A stretch of 64,000 nucleotides of DNA, from NCBI RefSeq assembly GCF_001458415.1, contig NZ_CYSD01000037.1, forward strand, positions 436,501-500,500. The letters run 5' to 3'. Positions within the stretch are counted from its first letter, which is position 1; each line of letters begins with the position of its first letter. The DNA comes from Tritonibacter multivorans. GTDB lineage: Bacteria > Pseudomonadota > Alphaproteobacteria > Rhodobacterales > Rhodobacteraceae. This document shows, piece by piece, positions 2,774 to 5,100 of the stretch. Under the pieces are notes generated by a model. It was not told the DNA's origin, made no database searches, and was given only the letters and a program-made list of their open reading frames with translations. The translations under genes and the position numbers were made by a program.

Positions 2774-3193
2774 TCAGTCGTCTTGAACCTTACCCCGTCC
2801 TGCCTTGATCTCGGATCTTTGTTTCTTGGCGTCGAGCCTGCGGCGCACGGAGCCTTTGGTTGGTTTGGTCGCAATCCGCCGCTTGGGTGCGACCAAGGCG
2901 CGGCGGATCATCTCGGCCAGACGTTCACGCACGATCTCGCGGTTGCGGACCTGACTGCGGCTTTCGTCGCATTGCAGGATGATCGCCCCATCTTTGGTCC
3001 AGCGCCGCCCCGCAATCCGTTTGAGCCGGGATTTCACAGGGCCCGGCAGAGCAGGCGAGCGTTCGGCCTCGAACCGCAGCTCCACAGCCGAGGAGACCTT
3101 GTTTACATTCTGCCCACCAGGCCCCGAGGCGCGCATGAAGCTCTCGGTCATTTCCCAGTCCTGCAGGGTAATCGTATCGTTGATCCGCAACAT
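2774..3193 (-). CDS. arfB: Alternative ribosome-rescue factor ArfB (peptidyl-tRNA hydrolase)
   Basis: A 139-aa release-factor-like protein that rescues ribosomes stalled on truncated mRNA by hydrolysing peptidyl-tRNA. The catalytic GGQ lies at residues 26-28 within RASGPGGQNVNK, and the C-terminal tail is long and very basic (KPTKGSVRRRLDAKKQRSEIKAGRGK), as needed to thread the empty mRNA channel. The frame is open 24 codons further upstream, but that stretch overlaps a terminator hairpin and does not look like family sequence, so the ATG at 3193 was chosen. The Shine-Dalgarno sequence there is poor. Confidence 0.92.
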   Translation of the reverse strand: MLRINDTITLQDWEMTESFMRASGPGGQNVNKVSSAVELRFEAERSPALPGPVKSRLKRIAGRRWTKDGAIILQCDESRSQVRNREIVRERLAEMIRRALVAPKRRIATKPTKGSVRRRLDAKKQRSEIKAGRGKVQDD

Positions 3194-3219
3194 GGGCCAA
3201 GCATATGCGGACAAACGGA

Positions 3220-3245
3220 AAAGGGCCACCCAAGCGGGCGGCCCA
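3220..3245 (-). terminator. Intrinsic terminator between the 18-aa ORF and arfB
   Basis: On the minus strand GGGCCGCCC and GGGTGGCCC pair over nine positions (one G-T) with the loop GCTT, followed by TTTTCC. It ends whatever transcript carries the small ORF at 3321-3377 before arfB begins. Confidence 0.65.
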
Positions 3246-3320
3246 TCCGAATGTTTTGAAAGCAAGGGCAGGTTAGGGCCAATATGGCCCAGCCGAGTGG
3301 CCTCCGCCCCAAGGGCTGCC

Positions 3321-3377
3321 TCAGATCAGCGCCGCCCCGGTTGTTGCTACCTCTTGCTCCAATACCTTCTTAGACAC
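3321..3377 (-). CDS. Putative 18-aa peptide with a very strong ribosome-binding site
   Basis: A GTG-initiated ORF, MSKKVLEQEVATTGAALI then TGA. The minus strand immediately upstream (plus 3379-3392) reads AAAGGAGGTGATCC, the full complement of the 14-nt 3' end of 16S rRNA, with 7 nt between AGGAGG and the GTG. That makes translation plausible despite the size. It lies 82 nt downstream of the queuosine-precursor transporter stop, and a strong terminator follows before arfB. I do not recognise the peptide. It has no signal peptide or membrane segment. It could be a small protein, a leader peptide, or a chance ORF behind an anti-16S motif. Confidence 0.45.
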   Translation of the reverse strand: MSKKVLEQEVATTGAALI

Positions 3378-3459
3378 TGGATCACCTCCTTTGCTTTGCT
3401 GTTACCGTTGGCCTCAGGCTGGCACAGAAACCGGGGATCTCCAAATCAAAAATGCGAGC

Positions 3460-4083
3460 TTATGCAGGGCGTGCCGAAAGGCGCTGAACAATCACGCGGA
3501 AGGGGATCAGCGCGATCAGCGCCAGCGACAGCTTGACCATCCAGTCCGCCACAGCCAGCGACACCCACAGCGGGGCTTCCGGGCCTGCGCCCAGGATGGG
3601 CAGGATTTCACCAGCCCAGGACACGTCATTGGCCGGTTCGATCCAGGTCAATGCGCCGGAAAAGGCGATGGTGAAGAAGATCGCGGTATCCAGCGATGAG
3701 CCAACAAGGGTCGAGGCCAGCGGCGCGCGCCACCATGCGCCCGAGCGCAGTGCGGAGAAGATCGCGATATCTGTCCGCTGTGCAATCAGGAAGGCCAGAC
3801 CAGAGCCAATGGCAATGCGCAGGGTCACCAGCGGGCCGAATTCGCCCATGATCTGGGTGCCAATCAGCGAACAGATAACGCCGACGACAAAACCAACCAG
3901 CACAACGCGGCGGGCGGGACCTGCGCCATAGACGCGATTGATGACGTCGGTCACAAGGAATGCGATCGGATAGGTAAAGGCGCCCCAGGTCAGCCATTGG
4001 CCGAACAGGAACTGGACGAGGATGTTAGAGGCCACCACAACGGCAGCCATGGCAAAAATGCCGGGCAGATAAGAGCGGGTCAT
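3460..4083 (-). CDS. yhhQ: Queuosine precursor transporter (VUT/YhhQ family)
   Basis: A 207-aa integral membrane protein of the vitamin-uptake-like family. It imports queuosine precursors (preQ0/preQ1) for the modified base at the wobble position of tRNAs with GUN anticodons. It shows about six hydrophobic segments and family blocks such as YPIAFLVTDVINRVYG near residues 38-53 and LASTLVGSSLDTAIFF near residues 122-137. A sequence resembling a preQ1-I riboswitch lies directly before the ATG, which strongly supports the substrate. The spacing from the upstream phytase-like gene (120 nt) leaves room for its own promoter. Confidence 0.9.
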   Translation of the reverse strand: MTRSYLPGIFAMAAVVVASNILVQFLFGQWLTWGAFTYPIAFLVTDVINRVYGAGPARRVVLVGFVVGVICSLIGTQIMGEFGPLVTLRIAIGSGLAFLIAQRTDIAIFSALRSGAWWRAPLASTLVGSSLDTAIFFTIAFSGALTWIEPANDVSWAGEILPILGAGPEAPLWVSLAVADWMVKLSLALIALIPFRVIVQRLSARPA

Positions 4084-4121
4084 GTTGGATCCGTTTTTTA
4101 GACAAGGTCGCGGAGACTTGT
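4084..4121 (-). promoter_or_regulatory. Candidate preQ1-I riboswitch in the leader of the queuosine precursor transporter
   Basis: Read on the minus strand, ACAAG (4121-4117) pairs with CTTGT (4106-4102) to form P1. The loop TCTCCGCGAC holds TCCG, which can pair with CGGA (4093-4090) to form the P2 pseudoknot. Between them is the run of six A, and the base after TCCG is C (4110), the position that pairs with preQ1 in this class. P2 occupies the GGA nearest the ATG, so control would be at translation initiation. An upstream hairpin (4117-4126 with 4138-4145) competes for the 5' strand of P1. Sequence, spacing and downstream gene all fit; no covariance model was run. Confidence 0.75.
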
Positions 4122-4203
4122 GTGCCTGTGTTTGGGTGGCACAAGTGATCGGCAGGCTTTAGGCGGGATTTATCCACAAGGCAAGCGATTCTGGTGGGCT
4201 GGG

Positions 4204-5100
4204 CTAGTCGGGCAGCTGGTATTCGACAATCTCGGTGCGCTGTATCCAAAGGAAATTGTCGTCTGAAATCATCGTTGCGCGCAGTGACCCCTGACTGTCA
4301 CGCCAGATCGAAACAGCTTCCAGATTGTCATGGGTCGCAACCGAGGTCTCCAGCAGCGTGGTGGCCCCGCTCAGCTGGCCTGCGCCCCAATTAAATCGGC
4401 GCAGGCGGGATCGGAACCCAATGCTGGCAAAGGAACGCTCCAGCACATAAAGCCGCCCATCTGGGCCAAAATCGGCCCCAACCGGCATAAAACCCTGTGT
4501 TTGTGGATAGTTGAATGTGGAAGCCCAGACTGCGCCATTCCAGACCCACACCCGCAGTGGATCACGCGGGACTGCGGGCAATTCGGACAGCATCACCAGC
4601 GCGCCGTCTGGGCTGATCGCCAAAGCCTCAAAGCTCTTGTTGCGACGGGCGTGCCAAAATGCACGCGGACGCGGCAGTGCGGTGGCCCGGGCGCTGGGCG
4701 CGGTATAGTGCAAAGCGCTGGGTGGGCTTTCTAAGGACACAAAAATTGTGCCATCGGCCGCAATCGCCAGCCCTTCCGTATCATCCAGGCGTGATGACAG
4801 CGGTTTGCCATCGGGCGCACGCAAATGGACGGGGGGCTGGGCCGCGACGGTATCAATCCGCCCATCGCTGTCACGCGCGATGCGCGCCTTGAAAAACTGC
4901 GCTTTGTCGTTGAGCACGGTGAAACCTGCGCCATCATCGCTGACCTCAAGACCGGAAAGCCCGCCAAACCATGGCGCGCGAATATGCCATCTGTAGCTTT
5001 GTAGATGCGTGACACCCGGCGCGAACCGTTCAGCTGCCCAGCTGGCCGGGGCCAGCATGCACACGGCAACCGCTATCTTGAGCGCAGAACGCGTGCGCAT
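4204..5100 (-). CDS. Secreted esterase-like/phytase-like beta-propeller protein
   Basis: A 298-aa exported protein of the esterase-like activity of phytase family. A signal peptide ends near residue 22 (ASWA). The body shows repeated beta-strand turns of the propeller type: GGLSGLEVSDDGAGFTVL, DTEGLAIAADGTIFVSLE, SFEALAISPDGALVMLSE and NLEAVSIWRDSQGSLRATMISDDN. The acidic residues in these turns probably bind calcium. Substrate is unknown. Its start overlaps the end of mepA by 28 nt, and mepA overlaps the MFS gene, so the three are probably one transcript. Confidence 0.82.
   Translation of the reverse strand: MRTRSALKIAVAVCMLAPASWAAERFAPGVTHLQSYRWHIRAPWFGGLSGLEVSDDGAGFTVLNDKAQFFKARIARDSDGRIDTVAAQPPVHLRAPDGKPLSSRLDDTEGLAIAADGTIFVSLESPPSALHYTAPSARATALPRPRAFWHARRNKSFEALAISPDGALVMLSELPAVPRDPLRVWVWNGAVWASTFNYPQTQGFMPVGADFGPDGRLYVLERSFASIGFRSRLRRFNWGAGQLSGATTLLETSVATHDNLEAVSIWRDSQGSLRATMISDDNFLWIQRTEIVEYQLPD

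Follow-up and report, generated by a model that had tools for sequence, protein, structure and literature searches.

The yhhQ locus and its leader

On the minus strand of the window, that is, the whole 64,000-nucleotide stretch of Tritonibacter multivorans DNA analysed here, lies yhhQ (3460–4083), encoding a 207-aa queuosine-precursor transporter of the VUT/YhhQ family. The original prediction had named such a transporter, and the protein indeed matches PF02592 (Vut_1) with 100.8 bits (cut-off 27.2) and the queuosine precursor transporter model TIGR00697 with 91.1 bits (cut-off 50.95). The gene is flanked on the same strand by arfB (2774–3265, above the NCBIfam cut-off) and by a phytase-like esterase gene (4204–5100), the end of which, judged by eye, is also found upstream of yhhQ in many related loci. 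The minus-strand stretch 3321–3391 holds AAGGAGGTGATCCA, the complement of the 3' tail of 16S rRNA, which has this single match in the window, where none was expected. It is directly followed on this strand by an 18-codon GTG frame (VSKKVLEQEVATTGAALI), a candidate peptide or RNA element, and in 43 of 80 related loci the 12-base core of AAGGAGGTGATCCA, together with a similar 18-codon frame, recurs on the downstream side of yhhQ.

The leader discussed below comprises the 120 intergenic bases of the minus strand between the end of the esterase gene (4204) and the start of yhhQ (4083), and all its features lie on that strand. It was compared with the leaders of the best 80 of 480 confirmed relatives obtained by protein search, giving 81 leaders with that of the window. 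Sequence matching identifies a putative promoter, comprising the -35-like TTGCCT (4179–4184) and, 17 nt from it, the -10-like TAAAGC (4156–4161). The pattern TTG-N17-TA, with the end of the -10 element 19–40 nt before the first aptamer helix (P1), is present in 74 of the 81 leaders; in base-shuffled leaders the same pair was found on average in 0.67 and at most in 5 of 81 (200 shuffles). The position of the putative -10 element suggests a transcript start near 4149, just upstream of a stem designated P0. The strands of P0, UGUGCC (4138–4143) and GGCACA (4121–4126), form a hairpin and covary strongly, and the 3' strand ends directly at P1.

P1 is formed by CAAG (4117–4120) and CUUG (4103–4106), or by ACAAG (4121–4117) and CUUGU (4106–4102) if the fifth pair A4121-U4102 is included, and it closes a 10-base loop, UCUCCGCGAC. 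The loop carries UCCG (4111–4114), the 5' strand of the P2 helix and a putative anti-Shine-Dalgarno element, which can pair with CGGA (4090–4093). The latter is the sole Shine-Dalgarno-like stretch before the start codon and is separated by six bases from the ATG (4083–4081). Loop L3, UCUAAAAAA (4094–4102), connects the two helices; it includes a six-A run (4099–4094) and ends with AAAA in 81 of 81 leaders. The presence of a hairpin loop able to pair with the 3' tail indicates an H-type pseudoknot, as judged from the sequence, and P1, UCCG (4114–4111), the A-run, CGGA and the possible 4-bp pseudoknot all appear as originally described. The minimum-energy fold of the window leader contains both P0 and P1. 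Its folding as a single strand is unremarkable (z = 0.19), by a method that cannot represent a pseudoknot.

The register of the loop was set against the Tte aptamer sequence given in an excerpt of PMC10639078. Position by position, the two loops share U6, C7, a variable position 8, positions 9–11 engaged in P2, and a three-base L2 ending in A14, followed by C15 and then by P1. The equivalent of U6, which contacts preQ1 in solved structures, is U4116 (U in 81 of 81 leaders), and that of C7, part of the C7-G11-C30 ceiling triple, is C4115 (C in 72 of 81). In this register L2 is the CGA at 4108–4110, C4110 included, while C4107, located after an A and directly 5' of the P1 3' strand, is equivalent to C15. 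Because the length of the loop and its key bases match the solved Tte type II aptamer, the ligand-pairing cytosine is predicted to be C4107 and not C4110, to which the original prediction had given this role; by the same analogy C4110 would be a base of the L2 loop.

Conservation and paired changes

According to their titles, the 80 relatives belong to Rhodobacteraceae/Paracoccaceae or recognised genera of these families, apart from two titled as a Rhodobacterales and an "Alphaproteobacteria" bacterium, respectively. With both A and G allowed as the second base of P1, yhhQ is preceded by the motif in all 81 leaders (in 80 under the first pattern), the search pattern itself demanding CCG, the ligand-pairing C and at least AAA. 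Since these relatives are close, identity of sequence alone proves little, and the weight falls on spacing, on paired changes and on the solved aptamers. The loop has 10 bases in 72 leaders, 11 in five and 9 in four, with the consensus G-U-C-N-C-(A/C)-G-N-N-A-C-C; the base before the ligand-pairing C, equivalent to A14 (A4108 in the window), is A in 71 of 81 and C in 10. L3 consists of 6 nt in 58 of 80 leaders. A fifth P1 pair can form in all 12 leaders with an L3 of 8 bases or more, as against 12 of 69 with a shorter one, a link behind which shared ancestry may stand.

A generic description of the fold was also used for scanning: P1 of 4–6 bp closed by G-C, a loop starting with U and ending with C, a tail ending with AAA, and P2 of at least 3 bp within 20 bases of ATG. 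It was written after the motif had been seen, and the E. coli yhhQ switch played no part in its writing. This description fits 80 of 81 yhhQ leaders; of the remaining ATG triplets on the plus strand of 31 related loci, 3053 in all, it fits one. It also picks up the E. coli yhhQ switch. The fold in yhhQ leaders is more than chance.

Among 61 distinct leaders, P1 is paired in 100% of cells, with A-U replaced by U-A in two and a single G-U; in divergent genera P1 takes the forms GGAAG/CUUCC, GAAG/CUUC and CGAG/CUUG. The three inner pairs of P2 are invariant in the 61 leaders, so that they neither support nor contradict this helix. At the outer P2 position, 39 of 81 leaders have U-A and 10 have C-G, and none has C-A or U-G. 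The remaining 32 carry G8 or a U-U mismatch; the pair is non-standard in 26 (GG 13, GA 12, UU 1) and can form G-U in 6. At least three changes between U-A and C-G are needed at this pair on the YhhQ tree, but taken alone it provides modest evidence, because one independent row pair is left when only well-supported branches are considered. Four divergent leaders have a fifth P2 pair (UUCCG/CGGAA).

Of all the helices P0 varies most, its sequence changing while its pairing is mostly kept. The five outer pairs are complete in 59 of 81 leaders; when the 3' strands were swapped among leaders (500 swaps), this was so in 24.9 on average and in 36 at most. Sliding the strands by one base gave 62, and by four bases 11. 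On the YhhQ tree, the pairs of P0 require no fewer than 8 to 12 switches from one Watson-Crick type to another. Judged singly, 44 of the 81 leaders have a P0 that surpasses 95% of shuffles, and one leader is practically devoid of it. The gap between P0 and P1 is 0 nt in 68 of 81 leaders (gaps of 0–2 nt were tried), and in the window the two helices share at most one base, A4121.

The proposal of a preQ1-I-like riboswitch before yhhQ is thus borne out by the occurrence of the motif in all 81 leaders and by compensatory changes in P1, those in the outer P2 pair being weaker. Two checks had been suggested with the original prediction. The comparison of leaders found P1, the A-run and the CGGA/TCCG pairing to be conserved; the search with the Rfam preQ1-I model returned no match.

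Distribution and the queuosine pathway

Rfam at curated thresholds gives no match anywhere in the window, and a search of 3900–4400 at E up to 10 lists no riboswitch. Likewise, RF00522 yields nothing above its cut-off (39 bits) in 41 genomes and 20 related loci. Matches of 14.7 and 13.7 bits in the genome of T. multivorans itself were dismissed as chance, the same search producing matches in 14 of 14 control genomes. RF00522 also misses the validated switch of E. coli yhhQ at E up to 10, and of the queC aptamers of the genus described below, 10 of 14 are listed at 21 to 31.9 bits, below the cut-off; the silence of Rfam is therefore little counter-evidence, and the failure of RF00522 to match the window at 39 bits reads as a limit of the model. 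Among other Alphaproteobacteria, where a VUT protein was matched above the cut-off in 142 of 289 genomes, RF00522 found no match at E up to 10 in 19 scanned VUT loci of 30 fetched.

A covariance model was built from the yhhQ leaders, 11 of the 72 distinct ones being left out of training (all with a 7-nt L3 and misaligned by MAFFT). It scores the window, itself a member of the training set, at 48.7 bits, and at E up to 0.01 it finds a match, in some cases a weak one, in 269 of the 292 genomes searched in the order. In the class, where 385 genomes were searched, five family members reach at least 39.6 bits and all other matches stay at 24.1 bits or below. The weak matches in 93 genomes outside the family (24.1 bits at best) were taken as chance; the one viewed had no switch-like leader. 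In a set of 61 genomes, matches of at least 31.8 bits are present in 30 of 37 from the family and in none of 24 from outside, where the best is 19.8 bits.

YhhQ was sought in 30 genomes of the family, namely 20 of the 23 without a model match and 10 with weak matches. It was not found in 14 of these 30, two of which have weak model matches, indicating that a few of the 269 are chance. The 16 yhhQ leaders recovered from genomes with weak matches or none include seven with a divergent version of the fold; of the others, judged by eye, two are bulged-like, one looks degenerate and six have no motif. These six leaders precede yhhQ orthologues and the scan finds no motif in them, so that they are candidate losses of the switch.

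Genes of the queuosine pathway were examined in the same 61 genomes, QueF being counted above 100 bits. QueC is encoded by 14 of the 37 family genomes, all of them from the same genus as the window; a match of 58.5 bits at 28% identity and one of 21 bits, both outside this genus, were too weak to be counted. QueF above 100 bits is present in 16 of 37, the weaker, uncounted matches all being under the family cut-off, while QueA and Tgt are encoded by all 37. Among the 30 genomes bearing the motif, 18 have neither QueC nor QueF but possess QueA and Tgt, or 17 if the distant match at 28% identity is taken as QueC. According to an excerpt of PMC5372724, preQ1 is the sole precursor that can be salvaged without QueF plus QueD, QueE and QueC. 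The absence of QueC and QueF combined with the retention of QueA and Tgt, the best evidence on the ligand, points to preQ1 as the probable substrate of YhhQ and ligand of the switch, an assignment that also leans on solved relatives. The rule is not strict: three genomes of the window's genus have QueC and no strong motif match, three genomes (one of them 82% complete) lack QueC, QueF and the motif, and one has QueF without the motif. In different bacteria yhhQ is controlled by preQ1 switches of various classes (PMC5372724, in part).

The genome of T. multivorans contains a second aptamer. The genes queC, queD, queE and queF, all above NCBIfam cut-offs, form a cluster on the contig that also carries yhhQ, at a distance of about 107 kb from it; with its aptamer, this operon occupies contig positions of about 331170–333440, outside the window. 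Upstream of it lies ACCGG-UCGCAGCCUAC-CCGGU-ACAUCAAAA-CAAGG, which is nearly the Tte aptamer. A Tte-like aptamer precedes 14 of 14 queC genes of the genus, 13 having been read directly and one through an adjoining RF00522 match, with an outer P1 pair that is A-U, or U-A in three. The aptamer of T. multivorans itself is not listed by RF00522 even at E up to 10. It shares with the window switch the preQ1-I type II register and the pathway; it differs in its 5-bp GC-rich P1, the 11-nt loop UCGCAGCCUAC, the Tte-like CAAGG tail and the lack, by eye, of P0.

A probable variant of the preQ1-I riboswitch

The window leader has the features expected of the preQ1-I class: a specificity cytosine adjoining the P1 3' strand on its 5' side (required by the search pattern), U as the first loop base, an A-rich L3 with its last A at P2, and a location in the leader of a queuosine uptake gene. 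The primary paper on the subtypes of this class is reportedly McCown 2014. In the parts of PMC11625349 consulted, type II is marked by AC before the P1 3' strand and type III by UU after the P1 5' strand and an AAGG tail, and the C7-G11-C30 triple sits above the ligand. The window has A4108 and C4107 before the P1 3' strand, as in type II, and UC and CGGA instead of the type III UU and AAGG; UU after P1 is found in 2 of 80 leaders, and also in divergent genera.

Like the type II Tte aptamer, it has a 10-base loop with U6, C7, C9, G11, A14, C15 and C16 (PMC10639078 and PMC11625349, both in part), an A-rich L3, of 9 nt in the window too, and Shine-Dalgarno bases in P2; all three bases of the triple are kept. 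In contrast to Tte, with a P1 of 5 bp and an L3 of 9 nt, the family variant mostly has a P1 of 4 bp and an L3 of 6 nt; its P2 core CCG/CGG is wholly of the Watson-Crick type, whereas two of four Tte P2 pairs are canonical, and its P0 abutting P1 is a further difference. With the type III switch of E. coli yhhQ it shares, according to an excerpt of PMC10622847, the downstream gene, a loop rich in pyrimidines, the AC that precedes the P1 3' strand, and a P2 pairing Shine-Dalgarno bases directly after the A-run. Besides UC for UU and CGGA for AAGG, it departs from that switch in its 10-nt loop (9 nt in E. coli), shorter L3 and P0. The type II AC mark and the Tte register, combined with the yhhQ context and the Watson-Crick pairing of the Shine-Dalgarno bases, make this switch type II in its register and type III-like in its P2. 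We rate it as a presumably new variant of preQ1-I and not a new class. In the literature searched, including the consulted parts of PMC4448311, PMC2258182 and PMC9495176, no mention of a preQ1 switch before yhhQ in Rhodobacteraceae was found.

Very probably, then, the leader carries a variant form of the preQ1-I riboswitch, seen here in Rhodobacteraceae alone, through which preQ1 would shut off translation of YhhQ. Conservation, spacing, covariation, gene association and distribution argue for the preQ1-I assignment; solved relatives serve as the guide to the ligand, its contacts and the off-switch logic. The transcript would begin just upstream of P0, which would abut a P1 of 4–5 bp, and the P1 loop would fold back to pair with the Shine-Dalgarno bases CGG(A/G) of the tail, creating P2. 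Abundant preQ1 would sit between P1 and P2, pairing with C4107 and being read by U4116 and the last adenine of L3; thus bound, it would lock P2 and leave the precursor importer YhhQ untranslated. When preQ1 is scarce, P2 would open and YhhQ would be made. In the original prediction, P2 would hide the GGA near the ATG; by analogy with the solved relatives, an off-switch acting through P2 on CGGA is predicted.

The same fold could sense another 7-deazaguanine, such as preQ0, queuine or a related base imported by YhhQ. Parts of PMC5372724 report that E. coli YhhQ is essential for preQ0 transport and that COG1738 members were proposed as queuine carriers in some bacteria, and loop L2 is unlike that of Tte. 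The equivalents of the preQ1 contacts U6, C15 (pattern-required) and the last L3 adenine are, however, kept; preQ0 would be useless for queuosine to the 18 motif-bearing genomes without a QueF match above 100 bits, and queuine is rated low because QueA, which a queuine-only user would not need, is retained in 37 of 37 family genomes. A ligand other than preQ1 is accordingly considered improbable. Still less credible, and indeed very hard to sustain, is the reading of the CAAG-N10-CTTG palindrome as a DNA operator for a transcription factor with the RNA fold as its by-product. The inverted repeat does lie just downstream of the conserved promoter-like pair and is almost invariant in sequence, yet its distance to the ATG is near-constant through the A-run and CGG, much of the 10-base spacer is conserved as strongly as the arms, the arms change jointly (GGAAG/CUUCC, GAAG/CUUC, CAUG/CAUG), and those of the Tte-like aptamer before queC are unrelated.

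The status of P0 bears on a further alternative, in which it competes with P1 and creates a second state, as originally proposed. The upstream hairpin (4143–4138 with 4126–4121) is real, and in the window A4121 is common to P0 and to the fifth P1 pair. The second state, on the other hand, is judged improbable, given that P0 ends exactly at P1 in the 68 leaders noted above, which is the geometry of stacked neighbours, and that the minimum-energy fold keeps the two helices together. A bolder version of the riboswitch reading, which we advance tentatively and at somewhat short of even chances, is a fourth preQ1-I subtype between types II and III. In it, the aptamer proper would include P0, stacked on a P1 of reduced length; most Rhodobacteraceae would carry such a switch, which would govern uptake of preQ1 where preQ1 is not made.

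The switch went unreported by the Rfam model in the sequences scanned, yet our own model matches 269 of 292 genomes of the order at E up to 0.01, weak matches included. The variant may be an evolutionary link between the type II and type III switches of the preQ1-I class, and as a small natural experiment it addresses whether part of P1 can be taken over by a 5' stem stacked on it. Many of these bacteria are predicted to depend on preQ1 taken up from others.
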